A DNA stretch of 64,000 bases. Source: Gammaproteobacteria bacterium (GTDB lineage Bacteria > Pseudomonadota > Gammaproteobacteria > 21-64-14). A program made the position numbers and the translations under genes. Numbering within the stretch: the stretch's first letter is position 1; each line of letters begins with the position of its first letter. Location of the stretch: contig JALUXX010000011.1 of assembly GCA_027013145.1 (NCBI GenBank), positions 1 through 64,000 of the forward strand. Direction: 5' to 3'. Below, piece after piece: positions 9,507 through 28,350 of this stretch. The notes beneath the pieces are model-generated. The model did not search any database. It saw nothing but the letters and a program-made list of their open reading frames with translations, and had not been told where the DNA came from.

Positions 9507-9668
9507 GGAGCCTGTCGGACCTAGGCATGTTCTACTGCGGCGGTGGGAGATCGGCCCATTTTTCCGATCGTTCTCGTTAAACAGCAATCACTATTCGCCT
9601 CAAACGATCGGAAAACTGAACTCGATCTCCCGCCGCCTCGCTACGAACACCTAGGTCCGACAGGCTCC
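9507..9668. mobile_element. 162-bp MITE-like nested palindrome at the 3' end of waaA
   Basis: The element is bounded by a perfect 19-bp inverted repeat, GGAGCCTGTCGGACCTAGG at 9507-9525 and its complement at 9650-9668. Inside are further matching arms: GGCGGTGGGAGATCG against CGATCTCCCGCCGCC, and TTTTCCGATCGTT against AACGATCGGAAAA. The whole sequence can fold into one long interrupted hairpin. There is no open reading frame inside. The size and terminal symmetry resemble a non-autonomous transposable element (inference). The right arm overlaps the last codons of waaA and provides its stop codon. It could also act as a bidirectional terminator for the convergent genes. Confidence 0.75.
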
Positions 9669-10916
9669 TAGGTAGGGCCGGAGCGTGTCCAGCAGCCGCC
9701 GGACGCTGCCGCGGTTGCGCTCGACCAGGAGCCGGCCGCGCTCGCCCATGCCCGCGCGCCGGGACGGATCGGCGAGCAGCGCGCCGACTTCGCGCGCCAG
9801 CTCCGCCGGGTCGTGCACGAGGCGCAACGCGCCCGCCCGCTCCAGCATCCCGGCCACCTCGGCGAAGTTGCCCAGGTGCGGCCCGCTCAGGACCGGAACG
9901 CCGACCGCGGCGGGCTCGAGCAGGTTGTGGCCGCCGGCGTCCACCAGGCTGCCGCCGACGTAGGCGGCGTCGGCGGCGGCATAGAACGCCGGCAGCTCGC
10001 CCATGGTATCGCCCACGAACACCCCCGCCTCGGCGGGGCAGGGGACGCCCTCCGTACGGCGGACCGTGCGGTATCCGCGGTGGCGGCACAGCGCGCAGAC
10101 GCGGGCGAAACGCTGTGGGTGGCGCGGGACGATCACCAGCAGCGCGGCGGGGAGGCGTCCGCGCACGATGTCGTGCGCATCCAGGATCCGCTCCTCCTCG
10201 CCTTCGTGGGTGCTCGCCGCGATCCACACCGGCCGGTCGACCCCGAGCACCCGGCGCAGGGCCTGGGCCTGCTCCAGCAGGCTCGGGGGCAGTTCGACGT
10301 CGAACTTCAGGTTTCCGCTCGGAGTCATCCGCGCGGGATCCGCGCCGAGTTGGAGCAGACGCTCGGCGTCGACCCGGCTCTGCGGGACGACGGCCGAAAG
10401 GCAGTCGAGCGTCGCGCGCACCAGCCGGCGCGCGCGCCGGTAGCCGGCCTCGGAGCGCGCGGAGATGCGCGCATTCGCCAGCACCACGGGGATACCGGCG
10501 TGCCGGCATTCGTGGAACAGATTGGGCCAGAGTTCCGTCTCCATCACCACGAGCAGGCGCGGGCGCACGCGGCGCAGAAAGCGGCGCACCGCGCCGGGCA
10601 GGTCGTAGGGGATATAGGCGTGGCGCACCTCCTCGCCGAACAGCCGCCGGACCTGGCGCGAGCCGGTCGGCGTCGTGGTGGTCACGATCACCGGCGCGTG
10701 CAGGCGTAGGGAGCGGATCAGCGGAGCGGCGGCCTGCACCTCGCCCACCGACACCGCGTGCACCCACACCGCCCCCGCCTCCGGCTCCGGCGGCACGAAC
10801 CCGAAGCGCTCCGGCCAGCGCCGCCAATATCCGCGTTCCGAGAACCCGCGCCGCAGCAACCGCAGCAGGGCGAACGGGGTCAGCAGGTAGAGGACCGCGG
10901 TGTAGAGGATGCGCAC
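9651..10916 (-). CDS. waaA: 3-deoxy-D-manno-octulosonic acid (Kdo) transferase
   Basis: WaaA (KdtA) attaches Kdo to lipid IVA from CMP-Kdo at the inner face of the cytoplasmic membrane, the first core step. The 421-residue protein has the N-terminal hydrophobic helix (YTAVLYLLTPFALLRLL), the GT-B signature VWVHAVSVGEVQAA with the catalytic glutamate, METELWPN, and the C-terminal GGSLVDAGGHNLLEPAA nucleotide-sugar loop. The chosen start is the GTG at 10914-10916, giving the family's usual N-terminus; no strong ribosome site is seen. The final residues GACRT and the TAG stop are encoded by the right arm of the adjacent palindromic element. It is the last gene of hldE-hldD-waaA. Confidence 0.95.
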   Translation of the reverse strand: MRILYTAVLYLLTPFALLRLLRRGFSERGYWRRWPERFGFVPPEPEAGAVWVHAVSVGEVQAAAPLIRSLRLHAPVIVTTTTPTGSRQVRRLFGEEVRHAYIPYDLPGAVRRFLRRVRPRLLVVMETELWPNLFHECRHAGIPVVLANARISARSEAGYRRARRLVRATLDCLSAVVPQSRVDAERLLQLGADPARMTPSGNLKFDVELPPSLLEQAQALRRVLGVDRPVWIAASTHEGEEERILDAHDIVRGRLPAALLVIVPRHPQRFARVCALCRHRGYRTVRRTEGVPCPAEAGVFVGDTMGELPAFYAAADAAYVGGSLVDAGGHNLLEPAAVGVPVLSGPHLGNFAEVAGMLERAGALRLVHDPAELAREVGALLADPSRRAGMGERGRLLVERNRGSVRRLLDTLRPYLGACRT

Positions 10917-10941
10917 GGCGTGTCGGGTCCCGGCCGCGCGC

Positions 10942-11895
10942 TCAGGCCCCGTGCCCCCGCAGCCAGTCGAGGTAGGCGGCCACGCCCGGCCCGACGTCGC
11001 GGAACGGCACGTCGCACCCGGCCGCCCGCAGCGCCCCGACGTCGGCCTCGGTGAAGCTCTGGTAGCGCCCGCGCAGCCCATCGGGGAAGGCAACGTATTC
11101 GAGTTCGCCGCCGCCGTGCCACTCGATCACCGCGCGGGCGACGTCGTTGAAGCTGCGGCTGCGTCCGGTGCCGACGTTGAAGACGCCGCTGACCCGCGGA
11201 TGGTCGAGCAGCCAGAGGTTGACCGCCACCGCATCGTCCACATAGACGAAGTCGCGCCGCTGCTCGCCGTCGGCGTATCCGTCGCAGCCCTCGAACAGGC
11301 GCGCGCGCCCGCTCTCGAGAATCTGACGGTGGAAATGCAGCGCGACGCTGGCCATGGCGCCCTTGTGGAACTCGCGCGGCCCGTAGACATTGAAGTAGCG
11401 CAGACCCGCGATCTGGCTGCGCGCCTGCGGCAGGAGCCGGCGCACGTAGCGGTCGAACAGCAGCTTGGAGTAGCCGTAGACGTTGAGCGGCGCCTCGAAC
11501 TGCGGATCCTCGCGAAAGACCCGCCCGCCGCCGTAGACGGCCGCGGAAGAGGCGTAGAGGAAGGGGATACCGCGCTCGAGACAGTAGTGCAGCAGGATCT
11601 TCGAGTACTCGTAGTTGTTGCGCATCATGAAGCGCCCGTCCCACTCCGTGGTGACCGAACAGGCACCCTGATGAAACACCGCCGTCACCGCGTCCGGGAG
11701 GTCCCCGCCGCCGCGGATGCGATCGAGGAAATCATCGCGATCGAGATAATCGGAAAGTTCGCAGTCGACGAGATTGCGGAACTTGGTCCCGTCGGACAGA
11801 TCGTCGACGACGAGCACGTCCGCGTGCCCGCGCGCGTTGAGTGCGCGTACGAGGTTGCTGCCGATGAACCCGGCCCCGCCGGTGACGACGATCAC
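10942..11895 (-). CDS. hldD: ADP-L-glycero-D-manno-heptose 6-epimerase
   Basis: The 317-residue HldD (RfaD) epimerises ADP-D-glycero- to ADP-L-glycero-D-manno-heptose, the donor for the LPS inner core. It is an extended short-chain dehydrogenase: the NADP-binding GGAGFIGSN motif is at residues 6-14 and the catalytic YGYSK is present, with an SSAAVYGGG serine block before it. The [20 protein letters not shown] segment is specific to this epimerase. It follows hldE after 7 bases and precedes waaA by 25, forming an LPS core operon. Confidence 0.97.
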
Positions 11896-11902
11896 GATGC
11901 GT

Positions 11903-13339
11903 TTACTCCCCCGCGCCCGATCCGCCGCCGCGGATGCGCCCCACCAGCGAACTGGTGGAACAGCCGTCGCGATACGGAAGCACCACCACCCGGCCGCCGG
12001 CCGCCTCCACGGCGCCGGCCCCGGCGATCTCGTGCGCCCGGTAGTCCCCGCCCTTGACCAGCACGTCGGGTCCCACGCGCGCGATCAGCCGCTCCGGGGT
12101 ATCTTCCGAAAATGCGGTCACCCAGTCCACGCAGCGCAGCGCCGCGAGCACCTCCATGCGTTGCCCCGCCGGCACCAGCGGGCGCTCCGGCCCCTTGAGC
12201 CGGCGCACCGAATCATCGTCGTTGACCGCCACCACCAGCCGGTCCCCGAGCGCGCGCGCCTGCTCCAGGTAGGCGACGTGCCCGGCGTGCAGGAGATCGA
12301 AGCAGCCGTTGGTCATCACCACCGACTCGCCGTGGGCGCGCGCATCGGCCACCGCCTCCAGCAGCGCGTCCTCGGCGAGCACGCCGCGGTGCGAATTCTC
12401 CAGCTCGCGCAGCGCGCGCCGCAGCTCGGGGGCGCTCACCACGGCGGCCCCCAGCTTGCCGACGGCGATCCCGGCGGCGACGTTGGCCAGCGCCGCGCCG
12501 GCCGCGAGGTCCGCCCCGGCCGCCAGCGCAGCGGCGAGCACGGCGACCACAGTGTCGCCGGCGCCGGTGACGTCGAAGACCTCGCGCGCACGAGCGGGCA
12601 GGTGCACGGCCGGGGCACCGGTCGGCACGAGCAGCATCCCCTCTTCGCTCAGCGTCACCAGCAGCGCGTCGAGACCGTGGCGCGTGGCGAGCGCGCGGGC
12701 GCGCTCCTCCATCTGCGCGTGGTCCCCGCACACCCCGACCACCGTCTCGAACTCGCTGCGGTTGGGCGTGACCAACGCGGCGCCGCGGTAGCGCTCGAAG
12801 TCGCGACCCTTTGGATCCACCACCACCGGGCGGCCGGCACCGCGCGCGGCGGCGATCAGGTCGCGGGCGCCGCGCAGGGCACCCTTGCCGTAGTCGGAGA
12901 GCACCACGACCGCGGCCTCGTCGAGCGCGGCGCGAAAGGCGCCGAGCAGCGCCTCCGCGTCGCACCGCGGCTCCTCGTCCTCGAAGTCGAGCCGGATCAA
13001 CTGCTGGTGCCGGCTCAACACGCGCAGCTTGGTGACGGTGGCGTATCCGGGCAGCAGCGTCGCGCGCACATCCACACCGGCCTGGCCGAGCAGCTCGCGC
13101 AGGCGTTCGCCCGCGGCATCGGCGCCGCACAGTCCGACCACGGTCACGGCGCCGCCCAGGGCGCGGATTCCGAGCGCGACGTTGCCGGCCCCGCCCGGGC
13201 GCTCGCTCTCCGCGCCCACGCGCACCACCGGCACCGGCGCCTCCGGCGAGATGCGCGCCGCGGCGCCGTCCCAGTAGCGGTCGAGCATCAGGTCACCCGC
13301 CACCAGCACGCGGGCGCGGGTGAAATCCGGCGTGTGCAT
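11903..13339 (-). CDS. hldE: Bifunctional D-beta-heptose 7-phosphate kinase / heptose 1-phosphate adenylyltransferase
   Basis: A 478-residue fusion typical of Gammaproteobacteria. Residues 1 to about 320 are a PfkB/ribokinase-type kinase with the [10 protein letters not shown] anion hole and catalytic Asp. The C-terminal part (from about 345) is a cytidylyltransferase-fold nucleotidyltransferase with [16 protein letters not shown]. Together they make ADP-D-glycero-beta-D-manno-heptose, the substrate for HldD encoded directly downstream. It is the first gene of hldE-hldD-waaA and divergent from an LpxL-type acyltransferase gene; the 107 bases between them must hold both promoters. Confidence 0.97.
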
Positions 13340-13446: not shown

Positions 13447-14376
13447 GTGAACCGAGCCCCCGCCATCGCCCCCGTCCCGCGCCGCCTGCACCCGCGCTAC
13501 TGGCCGACCTGGGCCGGGATCGGGATCATGCGCGCCCTCGCCCGCCTCCCGGTCGGCGCGCAACTGCGCCTGGGCCGCGCTCTCGGGCTCGCACTCGCCC
13601 CGTTCGCGCGCGAGCGCCGGCGCATCGCGCGCATCAATCTGCGCCTGTGCTTCCCCGAACTCGACCCCGCGGCCCGCCGGCGGCTGCTGCGCGCCCACTT
13701 CGCTTCTCTCGGGGCGGGGGCGTTCGAGATCGCCCTGAGCTGGTGGGCCCCGGCGCGGCGCCTGCGCGGGCGTGCCGAGATCGAGGGCCTCGAGCACCTG
13801 CAGGCGGCGCTCGCGCGCGGGCGCGGCGTGATCCTGCTCAGCGCGCACTTCACCTCGCTCGAAATCGGCGGGCGCCTGCTCGCATTGCACGCCCCCTTCC
13901 ACGTCCTCTATCGCGAACACAAGAATCCGGCCTTCGAGTCGGTGATGCGCCGCGCGCGCGCGCGCCACTTCGAGAAGGCGATCCCGCGCGAGGACATGCG
14001 GGGACTCCTGCGCAGTCTCAAGGAGAACCGCGCGGTATGGTACGCGCCCGACCAGAACTACGGCGGCGAACACAGTGTCTATGTGCCGTTCTTCGGCGTG
14101 CCCGCAGCAACGATCACCACGACCTCGCGCATCGCGCGCATCAGCGGCGCGGCGGTGGTGCCCTTCTTTCCACGCCGACTCGAGCGCGGGCGCGGCTACC
14201 GCCTGACGATATACCCGGCGCTCGAGGACTTCCCCGGGGAGGACCCCGCCGCCGACGCCGCGCGCATCAACCGCATCATCGAGGCCGAGATCCTCAAGGC
14301 CCCCGAGCAGTACCTGTGGGTCCACCGGCGCTTCAAGACCCACCCCGCCGGCAAGAACGTCCTCTATCGCCGGTGA
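13447..14376 (+). CDS. Lipid A biosynthesis acyltransferase, LpxL/HtrB family
   Basis: A 309-residue membrane-associated acyltransferase. The catalytic HX4E motif is present as His134/Glu139 in LSAHFTSLE, with the downstream YREHKNPAFE, WYAPDQNYG and FFGVPAAT blocks of the LpxL/LpxM family. These enzymes move lauroyl or myristoyl chains from acyl-ACP to Kdo2-lipid IVA, acting after WaaA. LpxL-like substrate use is the more likely choice but cannot be settled from sequence. The start is GTG at 13447. It is divergent from hldE and upstream of a heptosyltransferase gene on the same strand. Confidence 0.92.
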   Translation: MNRAPAIAPVPRRLHPRYWPTWAGIGIMRALARLPVGAQLRLGRALGLALAPFARERRRIARINLRLCFPELDPAARRRLLRAHFASLGAGAFEIALSWWAPARRLRGRAEIEGLEHLQAALARGRGVILLSAHFTSLEIGGRLLALHAPFHVLYREHKNPAFESVMRRARARHFEKAIPREDMRGLLRSLKENRAVWYAPDQNYGGEHSVYVPFFGVPAATITTTSRIARISGAAVVPFFPRRLERGRGYRLTIYPALEDFPGEDPAADAARINRIIEAEILKAPEQYLWVHRRFKTHPAGKNVLYRR

Positions 14377-14588: not shown

Positions 14589-15665
14589 ATGGAACCCGCC
14601 ACCCACTACCCGGCGCCGCGCGACGATCTCCCGGCGCGCGAAGACATCCGGCGTATCCTGATCATCAAGTGGAGCGCCCTCGGGGACGTGGTGCTCGCCA
14701 CCGCGGTGATGGAGGACGTCGTCCGCGCCTTCCCCGCATCCACCATCGACCTCAACACCCTGCCGCAGTGGGCCGGACTGTTCCGTGGCGATCCGCGCTT
14801 TTCCGAGGTCAGCGCCTTCGACGTGCGCGGCGCGCGCCGCAACGCCGAGATGCGCCGCTGGGTGGCGCACATGGCGGCGCGGCGCTACGACCTGATCGTG
14901 GACCTGCAGTCCACCGACCGGTCGCGCATCCTCCTCGGTCTGCTCGCGCTGCGCGGGCGCCTGCCCCGCTGGCGTATCGGCAACCGCCGCGCCGCCCCCT
15001 ACAATCTCTACCCGAAGCCGCTGCCGCAGCCCGCCCATATTCACGAGCGCATGCGCTCGGCGCTGCAGGGCGCGGGCATCGTCACACGCAGCGAGCGTCC
15101 CGTGCTCCACGTCCCTGCCGACAGCCGTGCCCGCGTAGCGGCGTTGGCCGCGGCGCACGGACTCGCCGCGGGCGACTATGCGGTCTTCCTGCCCGGCTGT
15201 CAGGCCGCGGGCTTTCTCAAACGCTGGGGGGCGGAGCGCTACGCGCAACTTGCCCGCCGTCTGCAAGGAGCGGGCATCGGGCGGATCGTGTTGCTCGGAG
15301 GCCCCGACGAGGAGGAGGAATGCCGGCGCATCGCCGCCGGAGGCGGGCCCGGGGTGGTCAACCTGTGCGGGGAGACGCGGGTCCCGGACCTCGTACCGTT
15401 GTGCGAGGGCGCATGGGTGGTGATCGCCAACGACACCGGCACCGCCCACGTCGCCGCCGCCGCGGGGCGGCCGATGGTGGTGATCTGCGGGCCGACCGAC
15501 CCGCGGCGCGTGCGCCCGATCGGGCCGGGCGTAGTCACCGTGCAGGCGGACCTCCCGTGCGTCAACTGCTACCGCAAGACGTGCCCGCATCACGCCTGCA
15601 TGCACCTGATCACCCCCGAGCGGGTCCTCGCCGCCGTCGCCGAGGCGCAGAGCCGGGCGGGCTGA
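14589..15665 (+). CDS. Glycosyltransferase family 9 (heptosyltransferase-like)
   Basis: A 358-residue GT9 protein. N-terminal ILIIKWSALGDVVLATAVMEDV is the family's signature, and the C-terminal half has VIANDTGTAHVAAAAGRPMVVICGPTDP, the ADP-heptose/phosphate-binding loop. A cysteine-rich tail (CVNCYRKTCPHHAC) close to the C-terminus recalls WaaC/WaaF-type and WaaQ-type proteins. It probably transfers heptose to the LPS core; the exact step is not determinable. The ATG at 14589 is preceded by about 210 bases without a gene after the acyltransferase. It is followed by two palindromic repeat units. Confidence 0.9.
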   Translation: MEPATHYPAPRDDLPAREDIRRILIIKWSALGDVVLATAVMEDVVRAFPASTIDLNTLPQWAGLFRGDPRFSEVSAFDVRGARRNAEMRRWVAHMAARRYDLIVDLQSTDRSRILLGLLALRGRLPRWRIGNRRAAPYNLYPKPLPQPAHIHERMRSALQGAGIVTRSERPVLHVPADSRARVAALAAAHGLAAGDYAVFLPGCQAAGFLKRWGAERYAQLARRLQGAGIGRIVLLGGPDEEEECRRIAAGGGPGVVNLCGETRVPDLVPLCEGAWVVIANDTGTAHVAAAAGRPMVVICGPTDPRRVRPIGPGVVTVQADLPCVNCYRKTCPHHACMHLITPERVLAAVAEAQSRAG

Positions 15666-16828: not shown

Positions 16829-17926
16829 GTGACGATCCAGCACGATCCTTCGAAGGCCCGGCCGCACGACCCGTTGCGCGTCGCACAGGTCATGCTCTCG
16901 CCGGGATTCGGCGGGGCGGAGCGGCTGTTCGTGGACCTGTGCCACGCGCTGCCGGCCTACGACGTCGAGGTGCTGGCCGTCTGCCACCCCGACTTCGCCG
17001 GGCACCATCTCGCCGCGAATCTCCCGGGTGTGGAGGTCGCCGCGGTCGCCGCACGCGGGGTCTGGGACCTGCGCGCGCGATCACGCCTGCGCGCTGCGCT
17101 CGCACGCTTCCGCCCCGCGCTCGTGCACACCCACCTCGCCCGCGGCGCCCACCTCGGCGCCGCCGCCGCGGCCACCCTCGGCATCCCCGTCGCCGCCAAC
17201 CTGCACAACTATGTGAAACTCAAGCACTACCGCGGCGTCGAGCGTTTCGTACCCGGCTCTGAGGACCAGCGCCGCTACCTGCACGCCCGCGGCGTCCCCG
17301 ACGCCCGCATCGAGGTGATCCCGCACTTCTCGCGCCTGCCCGCGCGCGCGGCGCCCCCCGCCTTCGCCCCCGGACCGCCGTCGTTCGCGGCGCTCGGGCG
17401 CTTCGTGCACAAAAAGGGCTTCGACGTGCTGATCGAGGCCCTGCACCGCCTGCGCCGCGGCGGCCTCGCGGCGACCCTGCGCCTCGGGGGCGCCGGTCCC
17501 GAGGAGGCCCGGCTGCGCAGCCAGGTCCGGCACCTCGGGCTCGGAGAGGCCGTCGCCTTCGCCGGCTGGGTCGAGGACGTTCCGGCATTCCTCTCCCGCG
17601 GCGAGATTTTCGTCCTGCCCTCGCGCGACGAACCCTTCGGCATCGTCGTCCTCGAGGCGATGGCCTGCGGCGCGGCCATCGTCAGCACCCGCACCCAGGG
17701 ACCGCAGGAGATCCTCGACGAGTCCGTGGCGTGGTGGGCGCAGCCGGGGGATGCGGAATCGCTCGCGCGGGCCATGGCGGCGGCCGCGGATCCGCACGCG
17801 CGCCGCGAGCGCGCGGCCCGCGCCCTCGCACGCTATCGCGAACGCTACACGGCCGCGGCCGTCGTGCCGCGCTTCATCGACCTGTACCGGCGGCTCGCAG
17901 CGGGCGCGACGGCGATCCGCCCGTGA
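16829..17926 (+). CDS. Glycosyltransferase family 4
   Basis: A 365-residue GT-B retaining glycosyltransferase. The N-terminal domain starts RVAQVMLSPGFGGAERLFVDL. The C-terminal donor domain has ALGRFVHKKGFDVLIEAL and the E-x7-E motif in LPSRDEPFGIVVLEAMACG. It resembles LPS core/O-antigen transferases (WaaG/RfaB-like). The start is GTG at 16829 with AGGAG only 3 bases before it. The last 53 bases overlap, tail to tail, the end of the O-antigen ligase gene on the other strand. It lies among LPS genes and probably extends the outer core. Confidence 0.9.
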   Translation: MTIQHDPSKARPHDPLRVAQVMLSPGFGGAERLFVDLCHALPAYDVEVLAVCHPDFAGHHLAANLPGVEVAAVAARGVWDLRARSRLRAALARFRPALVHTHLARGAHLGAAAAATLGIPVAANLHNYVKLKHYRGVERFVPGSEDQRRYLHARGVPDARIEVIPHFSRLPARAAPPAFAPGPPSFAALGRFVHKKGFDVLIEALHRLRRGGLAATLRLGGAGPEEARLRSQVRHLGLGEAVAFAGWVEDVPAFLSRGEIFVLPSRDEPFGIVVLEAMACGAAIVSTRTQGPQEILDESVAWWAQPGDAESLARAMAAAADPHARRERAARALARYRERYTAAAVVPRFIDLYRRLAAGATAIRP

Positions 17927-19199
17927 CCGCCTCGCCCAGCAGGGCGATCCCGGGCAGGATCAACCACCAGGTCACCGTCGACCAGTAGCTCGCGTAGAAC
18001 GACATGTGCACGTTGAGCGGGTTCATCGCCACGACGACGCCCACCGCCCACGGCAACGACCGGCGCGCCGCCTGCGCCGGCGCCGCGCGCAGGCGCCGGT
18101 AGAGGATCCAGAAGAACAGCACCAGCCCCACGCCCCCGGGGAACCCCGTCCCGGCGAGGATCTCGAGCAGTTCCTGATGCGGATGGGTCGGCGTCTGCGG
18201 CGGATGCAGGTTGCGCCAGAAGTCGTGCGGCCCGGCGTAGTACTTGTAAACGTAGCGAAAACCCCGCGGCCCGATGCCGTTCACCCAGTGGTGTTCGATG
18301 ACGTTGAGGGCGGTGCGCCAGATCGACAGCCGATAGGAGGTGGCGCGGTCGATCCGCTCGTAGTTCCCGCTGAACAGCCCCAGGGTGGTGTCGATACGCG
18401 ACTCGAACCAGGGCTGCTTGACCACCAGCCCGCCGAGGACGAGCAGGATACCGATCACGGCCCCCAGGACCTTGTACCACGCGATCCCGCCGTGCATGCG
18501 GTAGACGAACCAGCCGTAACCGAGCGCCGCGACGCTGACCATCATCCACGAGGTCCGGTTGCCGCTGAGGAAGATGCAGGCGACGTAGGGGACGAGCAGC
18601 ACCCACAGCCAGCGCCGCCGGCGCCCGTAGCGGCGCAGACCCTCGAAGTAGAGCGGCGAGAGCGTCGCGATGACCAAGCCGAAACGCAGGTAGGGATAGA
18701 AGACCCCCGCGAGCTCCGTCCCGTTGTACGGATAGCCGAGCAGGTCGCGCCCGAAAAAGAACTGCACCAGGCCGTCGACCGCCCAGGCGCTCAACAATAC
18801 GAACACGCCCAGGAACAGGCGCTCGCGGTTGCGCCGCACGCGCAGCGTCTGGACGATGAAGATGCCGGCGAGCGGGAAGCGCAGGAAGTCGCGCGCCGTG
18901 CTGGCCGAACGCGACAGGTCCGCCGCCCCCGGCAGCGACCAGAGCATCGGCAGCCAGATGCACAGGAACAGGAGCACGATCAGGCGGATCTGCGGATCGG
19001 CGCGCACGCCGCGCGGGTCGCGGTAGAGGCGGACGAGCCCGATCAGCGCCATGAAGATGAACGGCGCGTTGAACAGAGTCTTGGTGGGCAGCAGCGCCGG
19101 TACCGCGAGGATCAGCAGCCAGGCGTAGTGCTCCAGCCACCACGCGCGCACGGTCGCGGTCCATGAGACGCCCACGCCGGGCGACGAGGGCGCGCTCAA
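17874..19199 (-). CDS. waaL: O-antigen ligase family protein (Wzy_C/WaaL type)
   Basis: An approximately 441-residue polytopic membrane protein with about ten hydrophobic helices and a periplasmic loop near the C-terminus. The loop reads NGIGPRGFRYVYK ... HPHQELLEILAGTGFPG, the Wzy_C signature with its conserved histidine. WaaL ligases move polymer from undecaprenyl diphosphate to lipid A-core on the periplasmic side; Wzy-type polymerases share this fold, so the ligase call rests partly on LPS context. The start is uncertain: a TTG at 19197-19199 overlaps the stop of the upstream gene (TTGA), and a GTG at 19173-19175 is the alternative. It is the last gene of a six-gene operon. Confidence 0.82.
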   Translation of the reverse strand: MSAPSSPGVGVSWTATVRAWWLEHYAWLLILAVPALLPTKTLFNAPFIFMALIGLVRLYRDPRGVRADPQIRLIVLLFLCIWLPMLWSLPGAADLSRSASTARDFLRFPLAGIFIVQTLRVRRNRERLFLGVFVLLSAWAVDGLVQFFFGRDLLGYPYNGTELAGVFYPYLRFGLVIATLSPLYFEGLRRYGRRRRWLWVLLVPYVACIFLSGNRTSWMMVSVAALGYGWFVYRMHGGIAWYKVLGAVIGILLVLGGLVVKQPWFESRIDTTLGLFSGNYERIDRATSYRLSIWRTALNVIEHHWVNGIGPRGFRYVYKYYAGPHDFWRNLHPPQTPTHPHQELLEILAGTGFPGGVGLVLFFWILYRRLRAAPAQAARRSLPWAVGVVVAMNPLNVHMSFYASYWSTVTWWLILPGIALLGEAVTGGSPSRPLRAAGTGR

Positions 19200-20197
19200 C
19201 GCACCGCCCCGCGCGGCCTGCCCGCCGCGGTCGCGGCGGTGTCGAGTGCCGGGACCAGTCCGGCGAGGGCATGCCGCACACGCCGGTGGTAGGTGTGCTC
19301 GGCGCACGCGCGCCGCGCCGCCCGCTGCGCCAGGGCCCGCGCGCGGCGCGGGTCGGCAAGCAGCGCGCGGGCGCGCTCCGCCCCCTCCGCCGGCTCCCGG
19401 TATATCTCCACCTCCACCCCCGGCTCGAACTGGCGCTCCAGGCCGGGGCGGTACTCGATCAACTGCGCGATGCCGCAGCCCGCGCACTCGAAGCTTCGCA
19501 TGTTGGTCCCCTCGCGCACGACGCGCGCATGGACGTTCAATGACACCGCGTGGCGGGCGTACACCGCGGCCAGTCGCGCGGGGGCCACGCGCGGGCGGAA
19601 ACGCCCGGGGCGGCGCAGCGCCAGAGGATGGCGGAGAAAGTAGTTGCCGTAAACCCACGGCCGCAGGCCGGCCGCGAAGAACGCCTGCAGATGCGCGTCG
19701 CGCTTGGGGTCGCGATTGGCGACCGTACACAGCCCGCGCGCCGGTCCCGACAGCGGGCGGTGGACCGCCGGATGCATCGCGAAGGCGAGCTCGCCCGCGT
19801 AGCGCTCCGGACCCGCCGCCGCGCGGACCGCCGCGGCGTAGCCCGGGTCGGAGACGAACACGCGCGCGTAGGGGCGCAGCGTGCCCGGCCCGGGTGCGGG
19901 GGCGTCGGTCAGCCACAGGACGTGGCGCTCGTCCGGATCGAGGACCTCGAACTCCGGACGGTGGTTGATGAACAGGGCCGCGCGGTAATTCAGTCCGGCC
20001 AGTTCCCGCACCCGCGCGCGCCGCCAGCCGGCGCGGTCGATGCGGTAGCCGAGCCACTGCGCCGCGCCGCGCGGGTAGCTCGTCAGCCACACCACCCGGC
20101 CCGGCAGCAGGTCGTCCAGCGCACGGAAGACGTAGTCGGCGAGTCCCCCGCGCCACGGCTTGGCGATCAGGACGACCTCCACCGCGCGAGTGCTCAT
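19196..20197 (-). CDS. Glycosyltransferase, CgeB-like (Glyco_trans_1_2)
   Basis: A 333-residue protein beginning MSTRAVEVVLIAKPWRGG. The C-terminal half carries the Glyco_trans_1_2 pattern (LNVHARVVREGTNMRSFECAG, then CGIAQLIEYRPG), which is the donor-site end of a GT-B fold related to CgeB. The ATG at 20195-20197 overlaps the stop of the methyltransferase gene (20194-20196), and GAGG lies a few bases upstream, indicating coupled translation. Family members decorate spore or surface glycans; donor and acceptor are unknown. It precedes waaL with another stop/start overlap. Confidence 0.8.
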   Translation of the reverse strand: MSTRAVEVVLIAKPWRGGLADYVFRALDDLLPGRVVWLTSYPRGAAQWLGYRIDRAGWRRARVRELAGLNYRAALFINHRPEFEVLDPDERHVLWLTDAPAPGPGTLRPYARVFVSDPGYAAAVRAAAGPERYAGELAFAMHPAVHRPLSGPARGLCTVANRDPKRDAHLQAFFAAGLRPWVYGNYFLRHPLALRRPGRFRPRVAPARLAAVYARHAVSLNVHARVVREGTNMRSFECAGCGIAQLIEYRPGLERQFEPGVEVEIYREPAEGAERARALLADPRRARALAQRAARRACAEHTYHRRVRHALAGLVPALDTAATAAGRPRGAVR

Positions 20198-21171
20198 GTC
20201 CGCCTCAGATAGAAGACGCCCTGATCCCCGCGCCCCAGGCGGTTGAGCTCCCGCGCCCGGCGGTCGAAGGCGCGCAGTTCCCGGGGACCGAACAGGGCGC
20301 GGACCGCGCCCGCCGTTTGCAGCGCGATCCCCCGCCGATAGAGTTCGCTCCCGACGAACTGCAGGCGCGTCGAGTCGCAGGTCACGCGCTCGACCGTCAG
20401 GCCCGCGTGCGCGGCCGCGGCCGCGAGGCTCGCGCGCGTATGGAGGTAGAGGTGGCGCGGCGCGTCCCACTGGACCCAGTGCTCGCGGTAGGTCTCGAAG
20501 GCCTCGGAGTCGGCGAGCGGCACGCGGACGAGGACGCACCCGTCCGGGCGCAGCAGACGCGCCGCGGCGGCGAGGGTGGCGCGGGGGTCCGGGAGGTGCT
20601 CGTAGGAATGATGGAACATCACCAGGTCGAAGCGCCGCCGTGCGGTCCGCGCGTAGTCGACCAGGTCCCGCTTGAGCACGCGTAGACCGTTCGGGTATCG
20701 GATGGACTCCGGAAGGAAGGGGTCGAGTCCCAGACACCGCTCGAATCCGCCCAGCCCGAGGCGTAGCAGCAGCTTCCCGGTACCGCACCCGACATCGAGG
20801 ATCGACGCCCCGGGGCCGACGCCCGCGAGGCGCAACCACGGGATGTAGTCGAGGGGCTTGGCGAAGCGGTCGATCCACCGCGCGGCCGTCCCGCCGCCCC
20901 ACAGATGCGAGGCCACACGCATCCGGTCGAACGCCGCCCGCACCGGCCGGCGCGCGAGGCCCGGGCGGGCGCGAAAGGCGAAGTAGCCGGCGGGATAATA
21001 GGCCGCCGGATCCTCCGGCACCTCCCGGATCTGCACGCAGCCGCAGTCGGCGCAGCGGAAGTAGTCGAATTCCTCGCCGCTGCCGAACATCATCTCGCGC
21101 ACGCGAAAGCGCTCCCGCACGCCGCCGCCGCATACCCGGCAGACACAACCCCGATCCGTCCCGGCATTCAT
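20194..21171 (-). CDS. Class I SAM-dependent methyltransferase with N-terminal zinc-ribbon cysteines
   Basis: A 325-residue protein. The N-terminus has paired cysteines (CVCRVCGGG ... CADCGC), probably a small zinc ribbon as in sugar C- and O-methyltransferases. The catalytic domain has motif I ILDVGCGTGKLLL, and FDLVMFHHSYEHLPDP is motif IV. It probably methylates a sugar on the surface glycan built by the adjacent glycosyltransferases, or caps its non-reducing end (inference). Its start overlaps the stop of the preceding GT4 gene (ATGA), and its stop overlaps the start of the next. Confidence 0.88.
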   Translation of the reverse strand: MNAGTDRGCVCRVCGGGVRERFRVREMMFGSGEEFDYFRCADCGCVQIREVPEDPAAYYPAGYFAFRARPGLARRPVRAAFDRMRVASHLWGGGTAARWIDRFAKPLDYIPWLRLAGVGPGASILDVGCGTGKLLLRLGLGGFERCLGLDPFLPESIRYPNGLRVLKRDLVDYARTARRRFDLVMFHHSYEHLPDPRATLAAAARLLRPDGCVLVRVPLADSEAFETYREHWVQWDAPRHLYLHTRASLAAAAAHAGLTVERVTCDSTRLQFVGSELYRRGIALQTAGAVRALFGPRELRAFDRRARELNRLGRGDQGVFYLRRT

Positions 21172-22295
21172 GCGTGCGCCCCTCCGGGGGCGCTCTGCAC
21201 GTACAGATCCAGCGTATCGGCGAGCATGCGCCCGAGCGTGTAGGGATGCTCGCGCGGCACCGGCGGCGGCGCGCGCAGCAGCGTGCCGACCGTCGCGGCG
21301 AGGGCGGCGAGATCGCCCGCGGGCACGCGGCCCGCCGGATAGACGCGCGCGAGGATCTCGCCCACGCCGCCGTGGTCGTAGCCCGCGACCGGGACGCCGA
21401 GGCTCAGCGCCTCGAGCACCGTGCGGCCGAAGGACTCGGGGCGGCGCGAGAGCGAGAGCACGAGGTCGGAGACCGCGTAGATCTCGCGCACGTCGGCCCG
21501 GTGTCCAAGGAAGGTGACGGCGCCGTCGAGACCGCGTGCGCGCGCGGCGCGCGCGAGGGCGGCGGCGTAGCGGGCGCGCCGTCCCTCGGTCCCGCCCACG
21601 ATCAGTCCGTGCACGGCGTGGCCCGCGTCCTGCAACCGGACGAGCAGATCCAGAAAGTCCTCGTGCCCCTTGAGGCGCGTGAGCCTGCCCGGCAGCGTGA
21701 GGACGCGCGCCCCCGCCGGCGGCGCCGGACCGGCGCGCCAGCGCGCGAGCCACTCCGGCGGCGGGCGGTAACCGTAGGGCCACTCGCCGCGGTCGACGCC
21801 GCGCGGGATCACGCGGATGCGCTCCGGCGCCACGCGGTAGCCCGCCACCAGGTAGTCGCGCGCAGCCTCCGAGACGGCGATCACGCGCTCGCCGCGGGTC
21901 ATCACGGCGCTGTAGGCGTTGACGCGGTAGAGCCCGTGGACGGTGGTGACGAGGCGCGGGCGCGTGCGCGGGTCCATGCCGCGCCAGGCGAGCCAGCCGA
22001 TCCACGCCGGCAGGCGCGAGCGCGCGTGCAGGATGTCCACGCCCTCGCGGTGCAGCAGGGCGCGCAGCGGCCGCACCCAGCGCAGTGCGGCGGGGGACTT
22101 GGCGCCGATCGGCCAGGCGATGTGCTCGGCGCCGGCGGCGCGCAGCGCCTCGGTGAGGCGCCCGCCGGCGCTGATCACCAGCGCCCGGTGCCCGCGGCGC
22201 ACCAGCTCGGCGGCGACCTCCAGGGTGCCGCGCTCGACCCCGCCGCCCTCGAGCGCGGGCAGGAGCTGCACGACGGTCAGCGCGCGCCCGGCCAT
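21168..22295 (-). CDS. Glycosyltransferase family 4
   Basis: A 375-residue GT-B enzyme. It begins TVVQLLPALEGGGVERGTLEVA, a classic GT4 acceptor-domain start. The donor domain has LTLPGRLTRLKGHEDFLDLL and the E-x7-E-like block LSRRPESFGRTVLEALSLGVPVAGYDHGGVGEIL. The sequence resembles LPS core and O-antigen transferases. The ATG at 22293-22295 lies 23 bases downstream of the unrecognised 644-residue gene. It is the third gene in the six-gene operon. Confidence 0.92.
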   Translation of the reverse strand: MAGRALTVVQLLPALEGGGVERGTLEVAAELVRRGHRALVISAGGRLTEALRAAGAEHIAWPIGAKSPAALRWVRPLRALLHREGVDILHARSRLPAWIGWLAWRGMDPRTRPRLVTTVHGLYRVNAYSAVMTRGERVIAVSEAARDYLVAGYRVAPERIRVIPRGVDRGEWPYGYRPPPEWLARWRAGPAPPAGARVLTLPGRLTRLKGHEDFLDLLVRLQDAGHAVHGLIVGGTEGRRARYAAALARAARARGLDGAVTFLGHRADVREIYAVSDLVLSLSRRPESFGRTVLEALSLGVPVAGYDHGGVGEILARVYPAGRVPAGDLAALAATVGTLLRAPPPVPREHPYTLGRMLADTLDLYVQSAPGGAHA

Positions 22296-22318
22296 GTCCG
22301 CCCGCCGCGCGCGGCGCC

Positions 22319-24253
22319 TCAGAAGCCGAACATGTGGTCGAGGGAGAAGACCCCGCCCGCGCCGAGCAGGCCGTGGTAGCCGAACAGGCGGCAGGTCGTG
22401 TCCCGCACCAGGACATAGGCGCCGACGCCGGCGCGCGCGCGCGCGGCCGCGTCGAACAACTCGTGGTAGCGCCACAGCCGCGAGCCGCCGGCGGGGATCT
22501 TCAGGTGCCGCTCGGCCACCTTCCCGCCGCGCGCGTCGTGCAACAGCAGCCGCGTGTCCGATTCCGCGTGCCAGACCCGCCGCTCCGTGCCGAAGGGGGG
22601 GATCGACAGCGGATAGATGAGCTGGCAGAGGGTGTCGGTCGCGCCGTCGCCGAGGCGCAGGAACAACCGCGTGCTCAGACCCGGCGGCGGGCCGGCATAG
22701 GACTGCGGTTCGTTGCGATAGGTCACCGGTACGTTGTAGACATGCGCACCGAAGCTGCTCTCGGCCGCATGCCCGTTGTCGCGGCGCCGGTAGCGGAACA
22801 GCGCGTGCAACCAGCCGTCGGCCGCGCCGCCCGCGCCGAAGTCGTAGAACAGCTCCAGGTGGCCGTAACCGGCGGGCGGCGTCGCGCCGGCCTCGGCGAG
22901 CAGGGCGTCGAGGTCCAGCTCCGGACAGCCCCCGCGCGGGAGCCGGCCGAGCGGGCGGCACAACACCTCGGCGCCGGAGGCGTCGCGCACGGCGATCGCC
23001 AGCGGCAGCTCCGCCTGCGCGGTCGACATCGGCGTCGGCAGCACGAGCGTCTGCCACTGCGCGAGCGGCAGGAGCGGCGCCGGGAGCAGGTAGCCGCGGC
23101 CGAGCCAGCGGCCCAGCTCCGGCAGGCGCGGATCCGGCTCGAGGTCGGTGCGCTCGACGTTGGCGTGCGCGATGCGCACCCGCGTGCGGTCGCGCACCTC
23201 GTAGCGCGGGCGCACGAAGTGGCGCCCCGCGTGGACCTCGAACTGCGCCGGCCAGCGCACCTGCGGAAACAGCTCGCCCACATCCAGCGCCGCGGTCGCG
23301 AAGGGCCCGAGGGCGCAGTCCAGCGTGCGCACCTCCTCCGACCCCATCACGGCGATCCCGACCGCCCCCGCGGGAATCGGCGCGGGATGGCTGTTCTGGA
23401 TCCAGAGCAGCACGGTCTCATCGGCGTCCGGTGCCGGCAACCCGGCGTAGCGGTCCGCGGGCCAAGCGTTGGCATCGTGCGTACAGGAGAACTCGGTACC
23501 GTCGTCGGACCAGGTGTCGAGCGCGTACTTGATCACGTCGTGCCCGGCGATGCCCGCCGCGTGGATGAACAGCGAGCCCGTGAACTCGCCGAGACCGAAG
23601 CGCCGGCGCACCGCGGCGCTGTCGATGACGAGCGTGCCCCCGGGCGCCGGCGGGGTCTCCTCCCAGTCGGCCAGCACCTCGCCCGCGGCGTCGAACAACC
23701 GGAACCATACCCGCGGGGCGGGCGCGCCGTAACCCGACCAGTAGTCGCACAGCGTCACCCGCGTGTGGCGGCCGCCGCCTTCGCGCAGCAGCGCGAAGTT
23801 GGTGGCGAAGTTGAGCGGGTCGAGATAACGGCGCGGGTTGGTGAGCATCCGCTCCGGAATTCGCGCGGCGTCGAGCGTGACGACCCGCGTCGCCTCCGGC
23901 ACGAGCGCGCGGACCTGACGCTCGTAGCGGGCGGCGTCGAAGGCGGCGATCAGCACGCGCTCGTCGCGCGCCGGCGTGCTCAGCTCGGTCAGGGGCCGCA
24001 CCGGGTGACCGAGCGGCGATCGGCCGAGGTCTTCGATGCGCTGCACGCACACGCCGCGCACGTCCAGGGCCGAGAGATCATAGAGTTCGGCGACCACCCC
24101 GAGCAGCCCCTCGGGGTCGAACACCGTGAGCGGGGCGTCTTCGAGGCCGGCGATCAACTCGGCGAGCGGCGCGCACGCCAGCGGGTGGCCGAGGGCCTTG
24201 AAGGCGGTGCTGCCGCCGCGCCGGTTATCGAAGGTCTCGAACCGCAGGGCCAT
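22319..24253 (-). CDS. Conserved-looking protein of unknown function, 644 residues
   Basis: I do not recognise this protein. It has no signal peptide, no long hydrophobic helix and no known catalytic motif that I can identify. Residues about 1-135 look alpha/beta (alternating VLIAAFDAARYERQVRAL, VVTLDAARIPE). From about 150 onward it is rich in short beta-strand-like segments with aromatic and acidic residues (TRVTLCDYWSGYG, TRVRIAHANVERTDL, RVWHAESDTRLLLHD), suggesting one or more beta-sandwich domains. Codon use and GC content match its neighbours, so the frame is credible. It lies between a 2-oxoglutarate oxygenase gene and a GT4 gene on the same strand (gaps 47 and 23 bases), pointing to glycan or nucleotide-sugar modification. 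Confidence 0.85.
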   Translation of the reverse strand: MALRFETFDNRRGGSTAFKALGHPLACAPLAELIAGLEDAPLTVFDPEGLLGVVAELYDLSALDVRGVCVQRIEDLGRSPLGHPVRPLTELSTPARDERVLIAAFDAARYERQVRALVPEATRVVTLDAARIPERMLTNPRRYLDPLNFATNFALLREGGGRHTRVTLCDYWSGYGAPAPRVWFRLFDAAGEVLADWEETPPAPGGTLVIDSAAVRRRFGLGEFTGSLFIHAAGIAGHDVIKYALDTWSDDGTEFSCTHDANAWPADRYAGLPAPDADETVLLWIQNSHPAPIPAGAVGIAVMGSEEVRTLDCALGPFATAALDVGELFPQVRWPAQFEVHAGRHFVRPRYEVRDRTRVRIAHANVERTDLEPDPRLPELGRWLGRGYLLPAPLLPLAQWQTLVLPTPMSTAQAELPLAIAVRDASGAEVLCRPLGRLPRGGCPELDLDALLAEAGATPPAGYGHLELFYDFGAGGAADGWLHALFRYRRRDNGHAAESSFGAHVYNVPVTYRNEPQSYAGPPPGLSTRLFLRLGDGATDTLCQLIYPLSIPPFGTERRVWHAESDTRLLLHDARGGKVAERHLKIPAGGSRLWRYHELFDAAARARAGVGAYVLVRDTTCRLFGYHGLLGAGGVFSLDHMFGF

Positions 24254-24300
24254 GAATCACTCGCCGGTGCGCGCCCCCGGACCGGGGAGGGGCGCGCCGG

Positions 24301-24921
24301 TCAATGGAACGGATTGAGCCGCTTGATCGCGGCCGAGAGGCGATGGCGCGCGAGTTCCTGTTCGACGACGCGCGGCTCGGTCACCCAGTTCATCTGCAGC
24401 GCGCGCCGACGCCCCTCGTAGGGCTCGTGGCCGTGGAACGAGCGCTCCGAACGGCGGAAGGCCAGCAGCGTACCGGCCGCGGGCGGGACCTCCGCGGCGT
24501 AGTCGTCGAGGCGCGGGCTGCGCAGCAGCCGCAGCCGGCCGCCCTGATCCTCCCAGTCCGGGTTCATATAGATCAGGACCGTGATGAGCTTGGTCTCGGT
24601 GTCGGTGTGGATGCGCCCGTCGCGCCGGCGGCACCAGCCGCGCACGGTGAACATCGTCGGGCGGCCCGAGAGGTCGATCGCGAACTTCTCCTCCACCGCC
24701 TCCATGAACCGCGGGCCGTCGAGTTCGTCGATGAAGTCGCGGAACGCGGGGCCGGGGGCCAGCCCCTGGAGCGGGAAGCTGCCGGGCCCGGCGACCTCCG
24801 GGAAGTCGCGCTGCAGGTCCGGGAGCGCCGCGGCGCGCACGAAGCCCGGGACGACCACGAATTCGAAGGGGTCGCGTTCGAGCGGTGTAGCACGGAAGGC
24901 ATCGAGATCGAGGAACGCCAT
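24301..24921 (-). CDS. 2-oxoglutarate/Fe(II)-dependent oxygenase
   Basis: A 206-residue double-stranded beta-helix oxygenase. The iron facial triad is visible: His105 and Asp107 in RIHTDTETK, and a distal His at 163 or 165 (SFHGHEPYEG). Arginines at about 171-173 are positioned to bind 2-oxoglutarate. GTLLAFRRSERSFHGHEPY is typical of prolyl-4-hydroxylase-like 2OG enzymes. Substrate unknown; relatives hydroxylate proteins, lipids or sugars. The ATG at 24919-24921 has GGAAGGA upstream. It is the first gene of the six-gene minus-strand operon ending in waaL. Confidence 0.9.
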   Translation of the reverse strand: MAFLDLDAFRATPLERDPFEFVVVPGFVRAAALPDLQRDFPEVAGPGSFPLQGLAPGPAFRDFIDELDGPRFMEAVEEKFAIDLSGRPTMFTVRGWCRRRDGRIHTDTETKLITVLIYMNPDWEDQGGRLRLLRSPRLDDYAAEVPPAAGTLLAFRRSERSFHGHEPYEGRRRALQMNWVTEPRVVEQELARHRLSAAIKRLNPFH

Positions 24922-25011
24922 GGTCCGTCCTTCCGATAGGTTCCGGCCGCGGGGCCCGCCGCGTGTCGAAACGCCGCTGTCGCGGCCGGGTCTCCCGACC
25001 GCCGCCGGCCC

Positions 25012-25372: not shown

Positions 25373-26350
25373 CTATGATGATCCGCGCGATTGTAAGCGG
25401 CGCATCACCTCGGCGGCAACCGACGCGGTATCGTCGGGCGGGGTGTAGGTCCAGGTATCGAGCCGCCCGCGGAACGGGCGCGTGATGCCGGCCTGCTCCA
25501 GGCCGCGATGGAAGGCGCGGAACTTGCGCCCGCCGCCGCGCAACGCGAGGACGTGGACGGGGCGTCCGGTGGCCGCCGCCTCCGAGACCATCGACACCGA
25601 GTCGCTGGTCACCACGATGTGGTCGGCGAGGCCGAGGTAGGCGAAATAGGGGTTCTCCCCCGATCCGTCCCAGACCACGGCGGCGCCCGCGGGAAGCCGC
25701 GCGGCCAGCGCCCGCAACGCCGCCGGATCCGTGCGCCGCGACGGCGTGACCGCCACGCCGACGCCCTCGGCCCGGTGCAGCGCGGCGAGTTGATCGCCCA
25801 GACGGGCGGCCTCGCCCGGCCCGAACCGATAGTAGCGATTGGCCCCCCCGAGCAGCACCGCCACCAGCGGGCGCGGCAGGGCGGCCAGCTCGGGCGCGCG
25901 GCGCGCGGCCTCGGCGTCCAGCCGCGCGCGCGTGACGCGGTGCAATGCCCCGCGCGTGACGACCACGTTCGGGCCGCGGCAACGGTCGTGCCCGGGGACC
26001 ACGACCAGGTCGAAGCGGGCCGCATCCACGCGCGGGTCCTGAATCTGGACGGTGAAGGTGCGGCCGCCGGAGGCGCGCCGCACCGCAATCGACAGCGCCA
26101 CCGTCGCGCGCCCGGTCGCGATCAGCAGATCCGGCCACGGCGGCGCGAGGGGATCGCTCCCGGGACCGAGGGCCGCGAACGGGCGCCACCACAACTGCGG
26201 CGGCAGGCGGCTCCAGGGCGCGCGCGGGCGCACCGTCCTGCACTCCGGCCTCACGCCCAGCGCCTCGGCGAGCCCGAGGCACTGATTGAACATGCCGGCC
26301 TTGTCTTCGCTCAGCACCCAGCAGCGCAAACCGGCGGCGGGACCGCTCAC
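25373..26350 (-). CDS. ELM1/GtrOC1-like protein (mitochondrial fission ELM1 family)
   Basis: A 325-residue protein of the bacterial ELM1-like family (DUF1022). Typical segments are CWVLSEDKAGMFNQCLGLAEALG at the start, PDLLIATGRATVALSIAVRR, VVPGHDRCRGPNVVVTRGALHRV, and HIVVTSDSVSMVSEAAATGRPV near the end. The fold is predicted to be GT-B-like and these genes lie near LPS core loci, so a sugar-transfer role is suspected, but no activity is established. The start is a GTG whose bases overlap the stop of the upstream zinc-finger gene (GTGA), so the two are coupled. Confidence 0.88.
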   Translation of the reverse strand: MSGPAAGLRCWVLSEDKAGMFNQCLGLAEALGVRPECRTVRPRAPWSRLPPQLWWRPFAALGPGSDPLAPPWPDLLIATGRATVALSIAVRRASGGRTFTVQIQDPRVDAARFDLVVVPGHDRCRGPNVVVTRGALHRVTRARLDAEAARRAPELAALPRPLVAVLLGGANRYYRFGPGEAARLGDQLAALHRAEGVGVAVTPSRRTDPAALRALAARLPAGAAVVWDGSGENPYFAYLGLADHIVVTSDSVSMVSEAAATGRPVHVLALRGGGRKFRAFHRGLEQAGITRPFRGRLDTWTYTPPDDTASVAAEVMRRLQSRGSS

Positions 26351-26565
26351 TCCTTGAGGATATAGTCGGCGCCGCAGTAGGGGCACTTGGCGCGGCCGGT
26401 CTCCTCGATCGGCAGGTACACCCGCGGGTGCGAGTTCCACAGGCTCATGCCGTCCATCGGGCAGTGCAGCGGCAGGTCCGCTCGCGTGACCTCGTAGCAG
26501 TTCTCGGCGTTGGGCTCGCGGTACTTGTGTTCAAGCGCCGCGGCGGCGGTGTTCGGATTGGTCAT
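26347..26565 (-). CDS. Small zinc-finger protein (zf-CHCC)
   Basis: A 72-residue protein with a compact zinc site: LHCPMDGMSLWNSHPRVYLP followed by AKCPYCGADYIL, supplying the cysteine/histidine ligands of the zf-CHCC domain also found in the complex I subunit NDUFS6. Its function in bacteria is not established. I chose the ATG at 26563-26565 rather than an earlier in-frame start because the family begins close to this point and an AGGT box precedes it. It follows ilvE by 53 bases and overlaps the start of the ELM1-like gene, an arrangement widely seen in Beta- and Gammaproteobacteria. Confidence 0.9.
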   Translation of the reverse strand: MTNPNTAAAALEHKYREPNAENCYEVTRADLPLHCPMDGMSLWNSHPRVYLPIEETGRAKCPYCGADYILKE

Positions 26566-26618: not shown

Positions 26619-27539
26619 TTATACCGGCGTCTGCCACTCCGGGTGGGCCTCGCGGCGCCCGTGCACCTGATCGAAGTAGAGGGCCTGCAGGCGCTCGGTG
26701 AGCGGCCCGCAGCGGCCGGCTCCGATGACGCGCCCGTCGACCTCGCGCACCGGCGTCACTTCCGCCGCGGTTCCGGTGAGAAAGACCTCGTCGGCGACGT
26801 AGACCTCGTCACGGGTGATGCGCTTCTCCACGACCTCCACGCCGATCTCGGCGGCCAGCCGGATCACGGTGTCGCGGGTGATGCCGTCGAGCGCGGAGGT
26901 CAGCTCCGGCGTGAGCAGCCGCCCGTCGCGCACCAGGAAGATGTTCTCTCCGCTGCCCTCGGCGACGTAGCCCTCGACGTCGAGCAGCATGGCCTCGTCG
27001 TAACCGCAGGCGAGGGCCTCGTTGAGCGCCAGCATCGAGTTCATGTAGTTGCCGTTCGCCTTGGCCTTGCACATGGCGATGTTGACGTGGTGGCGCGTGT
27101 AGGAGGAGGTCTTGACGCGGATACCGCTGCGGATCTTCTCCTCCCCCATGTAGCGACCCCAGGACCAGGCCGCCACCATCACGTGGACCTGGAGGTTGTC
27201 TGCGCGCAGGCCCATGCCTTCCGAACCGAAGAAGCACATCGGACGGATGTAGCCGGACTTCAGCCCGTTCTCCCGCACCGCCGCGCGGTTGGCCGCGTTG
27301 ATCTCGTCCTTGGTGAAGGGGATCTTCATGCCGAGGATGTGCGCCGAGCGGAACAGCCGGTCGGTGTGGTCGGCGAGACGGAAGATCGCCGCCCCGGCAC
27401 CGTTTTCGTAGGCGCGTACGCCCTCGAAGACCCCCATGCCGTAGTGAAGGGTGTGCGTGAGCACGTGCACACGCGCCTCGCGCCAGGGCACCATCTCCCC
27501 GTCGAGCCAGATGAAGCCGTCACGATCGGCCATGGTCAT
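26619..27539 (-). CDS. ilvE: Branched-chain amino acid aminotransferase
   Basis: IlvE performs the last transamination to leucine, isoleucine and valine with PLP and glutamate. The 306-residue protein is fold-type IV: HTLHYGMGVFEGVRAY near the N-terminus, the PLP-lysine region CKAKANGNYMNSMLAL, and EGYVAEGSGENIFLV and LTGTAAEVTPV in the C-terminal half. The start chosen is the ATG at 27537-27539, with a GAGGAG box about 9 bases upstream; a second ATG follows at 27533. It probably leads an operon with the zinc-finger and ELM1-like genes. A large repeat cluster lies upstream. Confidence 0.97.
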   Translation of the reverse strand: MTMADRDGFIWLDGEMVPWREARVHVLTHTLHYGMGVFEGVRAYENGAGAAIFRLADHTDRLFRSAHILGMKIPFTKDEINAANRAAVRENGLKSGYIRPMCFFGSEGMGLRADNLQVHVMVAAWSWGRYMGEEKIRSGIRVKTSSYTRHHVNIAMCKAKANGNYMNSMLALNEALACGYDEAMLLDVEGYVAEGSGENIFLVRDGRLLTPELTSALDGITRDTVIRLAAEIGVEVVEKRITRDEVYVADEVFLTGTAAEVTPVREVDGRVIGAGRCGPLTERLQALYFDQVHGRREAHPEWQTPV

Positions 27540-27676
27540 GTTGCGGTTCTCCTCGATGCCGTAGGTCGAAACGGCACATGAACGCCTATTCTCCCACATG
27601 TGGGGCAAAAATGGCCGCGCGGAGGCGCCGCGTCCGCGCCGCAGGAGAGGGGCCGGGGTCAGCGCCCGGCAGGACA

Positions 27677-28346: not shown

Positions 28347-28350
28347 CACT

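Follow-up and report, generated by a model that had tools for sequence, protein, structure and literature searches.

The DNA window analysed here, a stretch of 64,000 nucleotides, carries six adjacent open reading frames on its minus strand (17874-24921), among them genes for a 2OG-Fe(II) oxygenase, an O-antigen ligase and a 644-residue protein, here termed U644. The initial annotation, made from the letters of the sequence, described U644 as an unrecognised but conserved partner of the oxygenase and proposed that the six genes form a dedicated pathway in which a surface glycan is hydroxylated and methylated before ligation. The locus therefore raises the question of what kind of protein U644 is, and with which of its neighbours it belongs.

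The six genes are part of an LPS-core locus

The six reading frames were found where the initial annotation had placed them, and their order, spacing and families were confirmed by coordinates and domain matches (Table 1). The oxygenase and U644 genes lie 47 bases apart and the U644 and GT4 genes 23, and each of the three junctions that follow is a 4-base overlap. The complete LPS-core locus to which the six genes contribute the minus-strand half comprises hldE, hldD, waaA, an acyltransferase, glycosyltransferases and the ligase, and also contains GT2 and GT4 genes; the proposed surface-glycan setting was therefore correct. A 451-base spacer separates the oxygenase gene from a co-directional upstream gene for an ELM1 protein, beyond which lie ilvE and glnE. 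The ELM1 protein matched PF06258 with 362 bits (curated Pfam cut-off 27) over model positions 1-304 of 304.

Table 1 Features of the LPS-core locus in the 64-kb window
Feature	Position	Strand	Remarks
waaA-containing ORF	9651..11093	-	PF04413 match 10296-10820; true start inside ORF; product a canonical Kdo transferase
HldD-type epimerase (ADP-heptose epimerase)	10942..11895	-	putative name, from sequence and position
HldE-type PfkB kinase + cytidylyltransferase-like fusion	11903..13339	-	putative name
Lipid A acyltransferase	13447..14376	+	PF03279
Heptosyltransferase-type GT9	14589..15665	+	PF01075
O-antigen ligase	17874..19199	-	PF04932 Wzy_C
CgeB-like glycosyltransferase	19196..20197	-	PF13524
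Class I methyltransferase	20194..21171	-	PF13489, lineage-specific
GT4 glycosyltransferase	21168..22295	-	GT4 domains
U644	22319..24253	-	644 aa, new family, predicted cytoplasmic
2OG-Fe(II) oxygenase	24301..24921	-	206 aa, PF13640
ELM1 GT-B-type glycosyltransferase, KdoT-like	25373..26440	-	PF06258, E 2.6e-108
ilvE aminotransferase	26619..27542	-	flanks ELM1; start codon not fixed

The spacer between ELM1 and the oxygenase (24922-25372) contains tandem palindrome-like repeats, GTAGGGCGGGGCTTGCCCCGCCG and CGGCCGGGCAAGCCCGGCCCTAC, with a 116-base unit repeated at 93%. The ilvE/glnE interval (27632-28454) contains G+C-rich direct repeats of the CAGGACAGGGGTCGGAGTCAACGCCCGG family in 4-5 copies, which are open in several frames and inflate the ORF calls in this interval. 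An Rfam search of 13-29 kb of the window gave no match.

U644 is the founder of a conserved protein family

U644 is the founder of a widespread, strongly conserved and previously undescribed bacterial family. In agreement with its description as unrecognised, U644 remained without a match when searched against Pfam, NCBIfam and PHROGs (E ≤ 1), PADLOC (E ≤ 0.01) and PDB sequences (E ≤ 10), and a profile built from 79 U644-family sequences also gave no match in the PDB at E ≤ 10. A scan of GTDB identified at least 567 stretches that encode a relative. The best-scoring 80 of these (at least 567) were kept as loci, a sample in which relatives are over-represented and loci are not independent; it includes Azospirillum, other Rhodospirillales, Sulfuriferula, Methylophilaceae and two Omnitrophota-labelled genomes. 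From these 80 best-scoring loci, 78 full-length relatives were aligned; they are 48-61% identical to U644, with colinear reading frames, as expected of the conserved protein that had been predicted. Among 368 other genomes surveyed in the class, 4 also encode a full-length homologue, as do three further genomes of the phylum; none were found in the plasmid records searched. Weak partial matches in two genomes of the class survey (G129 and G327) were attributed to chance after re-scoring with the 79-sequence profile.

Across the 79 family sequences 88 alignment columns are invariant, and invariant motifs of U644 include THDxN (258-262), RPRYE (348-352), DGWxH (479-483), EPQSY (515-519) and CRLFG (621-625). 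Residues identical in 79/79 sequences include H23, H259, D260, R348, E352, H363, H465, D479, H483, H495, H504, E515, C621, D639 and H640, among others. The C-terminal end reads DHMFG[FY] in 80/80 GTDB relatives (best 80 of at least 567), and the tail of U644 itself ends in DHMFGF. The full-length colinear homologues, the invariant columns and the common C-terminal residues indicate that U644 is a real gene.

No transmembrane segment was predicted in U644 from hydropathy and its N-terminus is not hydrophobic, so the protein is likely cytoplasmic; a predicted membrane span is likewise absent from ELM1 and the oxygenase. Structure prediction, which the initial annotation had suggested, produced a confident AlphaFold2 model with 79 sequences (pLDDT 93.1, pTM 0.92; an earlier model with 5 sequences, pLDDT 63, was replaced), and for full-length U644 the Foldseek matches listed had TM-scores ≤ 0.17, with no solved structure among them that covers the whole protein. 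In the model, a Rossmann-like domain is predicted at approximately residues 39-131 and beta-sandwiches at approximately 143-264, 273-368, 375-492 and 526-634. Structural matches of single domains had Z ≤ 8.4, the best resemblance of the N-terminal domain being to NADH-binding Rex repressor domains (Z 8.4 over about 90 residues), which is near chance level. Foldseek matches to complement C3 and viral proteins (TM about 0.1) were rejected as generic beta-sandwiches.

These data bear on a tentative alternative, in which U644 would be an enzyme in its own right, from a new class that modifies sugars or carriers, and ELM1 would transfer the product of U644 instead of plain Kdo. The Rossmann-like domain of U644 would then bind a nucleotide or cofactor, and conserved His, Asp and Cys residues would form a site between the beta-sandwiches. 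Polar residues invariant in 79/79 sequences occur at a density that fits an enzyme better than a scaffold, and the resemblance to NADH-binding Rex domains (Z about 8) is consistent with such a role; however, a Z of this size is common by chance for a match of that length, conservation within U644 is lowest in the Rossmann-like domain, with one invariant position of 93 (D46), and a glycine-rich dinucleotide motif was not obvious by eye.

ELM1 is the constant partner of U644

The limits of the six-gene unit drawn in the initial annotation omitted the co-directional ELM1 gene, which is the most constant partner of U644. Among the best 80 of at least 567 loci ELM1 adjoins U644 in 66, in 65 of them co-directionally. 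The gene orders in these 80 best-scoring loci, with U for U644 and 2OG for the oxygenase, are ELM1-U (33), ELM1-2OG-U (24), 2OG-ELM1-U (9), 2OG-U (2) and U alone (12), and the median distance from U644 to the preceding partner gene is 54 bases in other U644 loci. In the first eight U644 genomes, the window included, ELM1 was adjacent in 8/8 and the oxygenase in 4/8. An adjacent ELM1 is missing from fourteen of the best 80 loci: in six the contig breaks off, and each of the eight with a visible neighbourhood has ELM1 elsewhere in the genome. ELM1 adjoins the oxygenase in 6/8 of the genomes where it is distant from U644. Thus U644 and ELM1 co-occur, adjacent or apart, in every genome checked. 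The class survey (369 genomes) is a fairer sample than the GTDB loci, which are the best 80 of at least 567, and there ELM1 was present in 5/5 U644 genomes against 80/369 overall (hypergeometric P 4.3e-4). U644 is absent from 75 of the 80 ELM1-bearing genomes of the class, and is therefore not needed for ELM1 function generally.

The oxygenase is linked to U644 in 35 of the best 80 of at least 567 loci. When 19 genomes that have ELM1-U and lack a linked oxygenase gene were searched, an orthologue was found elsewhere in 7 and none at E ≤ 1e-10 in 12. On these adjacency counts and genome-wide checks, ELM1 is the constant partner of U644 and the oxygenase an optional second partner. The earlier description of U644 as a conserved oxygenase partner thus holds as an association but does not define the family, and the strict pairing that it implied fails. 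A broader functional link survives: in Azospirillum genomes whose U644 gene lies elsewhere, ELM1 and the oxygenase have stayed together. Overall, ELM1 and U644 with an optional oxygenase form the better-supported unit, whereas the oxygenase-centred pathway is only partly supported.

In an ELM1 tree of 114 sequences the U644-linked members are concentrated in one part (7 label changes vs 28.8 in shuffles), and a separate branch of 11 sequences is entirely U644-free. A mirror-tree comparison gave a partial r of 0.56 after controlling for a housekeeping gene, and little weight was placed on it because the signal is modest once that gene is controlled. The association does not reflect inheritance of a single block, because gene order varies and the surroundings differ. 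In one lineage U644 is preceded by carB, greA and a gene for an Lrp-type regulator and followed by trxB and a LysR gene; in others it is surrounded by grpE/dnaK/dnaJ or has waaA directly upstream (gene names assigned by eye from sequence, waaA alone checked). The alphaproteobacterial module usually lies among housekeeping genes, not LPS genes. A genome of the same genus as the window (G001) retains the order GT4-ELM1-ilvE-glnE (ELM1 78%, GT4 61%); U644 is absent from it genome-wide, and the oxygenase, methyltransferase and CgeB are absent at the locus. The module has therefore been gained or lost within one genus.

The methyltransferase, CgeB and ligase genes are rare or absent near U644 relatives

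The proposal of hydroxylation and methylation before ligation by a dedicated six-gene pathway, with the oxygenase and U644 as a pair, was also assessed against these loci. It draws on the tight gene spacing in the window and on the frequent linkage of the oxygenase, but a methyltransferase homologue was found near U644 in 0/80 related loci and CgeB and the ligase recur in 1/80 (L025; best 80 of at least 567 in each case), so the arrangement is not conserved. With the oxygenase also missing from 12 of the 19 genomes checked, and ELM1 and GT4 kept in G001, where U644, the oxygenase, the methyltransferase and CgeB are missing at the locus, we regard a dedicated six-gene pathway as highly improbable. 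In L025 the order is ELM1-U-GT4-[membrane protein]-CgeB-ligase-GT2, as in the window, and the membrane protein, acyltransferase-like by eye, occupies the methyltransferase slot of the window. A GT4 homologue directly follows U644 in three related loci (L025, L029 and L099, from the best 80 of at least 567) and lies beside or near ELM1 in several U644-less genomes.

The iron-binding residues of the oxygenase are conserved

The HxD...H iron triad and distal arginine of an Fe(II)/2OG enzyme are present in the window oxygenase, H105, D107, H163 and R172 being invariant in 14 orthologues. Its chemistry class is that of KdoO, the Fe(II)/2OG-dependent Kdo 3-hydroxylase (PF11004), and an inner-core Kdo target is proposed for it here. 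The PF11004 model has 275 positions, whereas the window protein is shorter (Table 1) and at E ≤ 1 matched PF13640 and PF13661 only, not PF11004. A genome search for PF11004 gave no match, and neither did its control. The PADLOC match of the oxygenase, named '2OG', is to a generic oxygenase model and was rejected as evidence of defence.

A candidate module for inner-core assembly

KdoT of A. baumannii belongs to the ELM1 family and uses CMP-Kdo to add the third Kdo to Kdo2-lipid IVA; core synthesis in the mutant is restored by a Rickettsia ELM1 homologue, and the conserved SRRT motif matters for KdoT activity (PMC12856342). The role of bacterial ELM1 was unknown before this assay in 2025, the tested members come from Acinetobacter and Rickettsia only, and KdoT is the sole characterised bacterial ELM1 found in our literature search. 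SRRT occupies residues 234-237 of the window ELM1 and is present in 80 of 81 U644-linked ELM1s, and also in nearly all ELM1s without U644. As the motif is general to the ELM1 family, it argues for a glycosyltransferase role without specifying the sugar.

The window resembles the KdoT/GnaT inner-core pathway of A. baumannii in its PF06258 protein, SRRT motif, ilvE neighbour and position in an LPS/LOS core locus (PMC12856342, PMC10936431). The GT4 partner, GnaT/LpsB, is at a separate locus in A. baumannii, whereas a GT4 gene lies within the operon of the window; U644 and a 2OG oxygenase are not described with KdoT in the consulted parts of these two reports. A. baumannii outer-core loci are ilvE-bounded and have a PF06258 protein in every locus type, and the GtrOC1 locus shares both features with the window; unlike in the window, a U644-like gene is not described there in the consulted portion of that source (PMC10327509). 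The ilvE-ELM1 order of the window matches the Acinetobacter core locus (PMC10327509, PMC10936431).

U644 probably helps to build or tailor the LPS inner core. With moderate confidence, we propose that U644, ELM1 and, where present, the 2OG oxygenase form a module for inner-core LPS assembly at the cytoplasmic face of the inner membrane. By analogy with its family, ELM1 would extend the Kdo-lipid A stem by an octulosonic-acid (Kdo-type) residue, and the oxygenase may hydroxylate this residue or its neighbour. Through the stack of beta-sandwiches and the invariant tail at its C-terminus, U644 could dock on the acceptor glycan or on ELM1, and may either position the substrate or introduce an additional change into that sugar. 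The core would later be extended or decorated, ahead of ligation, by GT4, CgeB and the lineage-specific methyltransferase. This is the most likely picture because of the constant pairing of U644 with ELM1, the activity of KdoT, the ELM1/ilvE context and the intact iron site of the oxygenase, and the window's LPS-core locus carries its own waaA. Several findings count against it: no structural match points to a catalytic activity for U644, the alphaproteobacterial copies are mostly outside LPS genes, most ELM1-bearing genomes of the class lack U644, and SRRT, being shared with ELM1s that have no U644 partner, does not tell Kdo from another donor.

The same alphaproteobacterial copies could indicate that the module targets a glycoprotein (flagellin or another surface protein) or capsule and that its position in an LPS locus is due to chance, as could L098, where an ArnT/PMT-type glycosyltransferase is directly upstream and the ORFs adjoining it look flagellar by eye. 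We consider such a target unlikely, given the Kdo-transfer activity known for ELM1 proteins (PMC12856342), the orders waaA-ELM1-U on one strand (L035, L036 and L037) and waaA-U (L027), the core-like cluster in L025 and the PAP2/ArnT-type neighbours. A PAP2 phosphatase gene is near U644 in ten loci without a linked oxygenase (from the best 80 of at least 567), and in 5/10 of these an ArnT/PMT-type glycosyltransferase gene is beside it.

A more speculative possibility, which we hold with considerable doubt, is that U644 founds a class of enzymes that alter octulosonic acid or produce an unusual form of it, within a new inner-core LPS pathway of alpha-, beta- and gammaproteobacteria in which ELM1 and the oxygenase together would build a hydroxylated Kdo-type sugar. 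The U644 family, present in hundreds of genomes, tracks ELM1 despite rearrangement and offers a direct handle on the role of ELM1 elsewhere; it suggests that many environmental proteobacteria, the plant-associated Azospirillum among them, carry out inner-core chemistry that has yet to be described.

Further arrangements in related loci

ELM1 domains were observed within ORFs of 819-944 aa (L135, 5195-8029; L136, 2115-4574), which are possible fusions whose other half could indicate ELM1 function. In L139 (6227-8787) a tandem pair of ELM1 genes lies beside a 2OG oxygenase, a ligase and GT4, with no U644. A second, divergent 2OG-like gene is located between ELM1 and the oxygenase in Azospirillum (L042, 5399-6094; similarly L044, L064 and L065), and its homologue adjoins ELM1 in L137, which has no U644. 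In L040 (5207-6835), from Azospirillum halopraeferens, the visible flank is without ELM1 and U644 is immediately preceded by a gene for a phage head-to-tail connector (PF12236, E 2.7e-144), an arrangement that is probably a prophage insertion.
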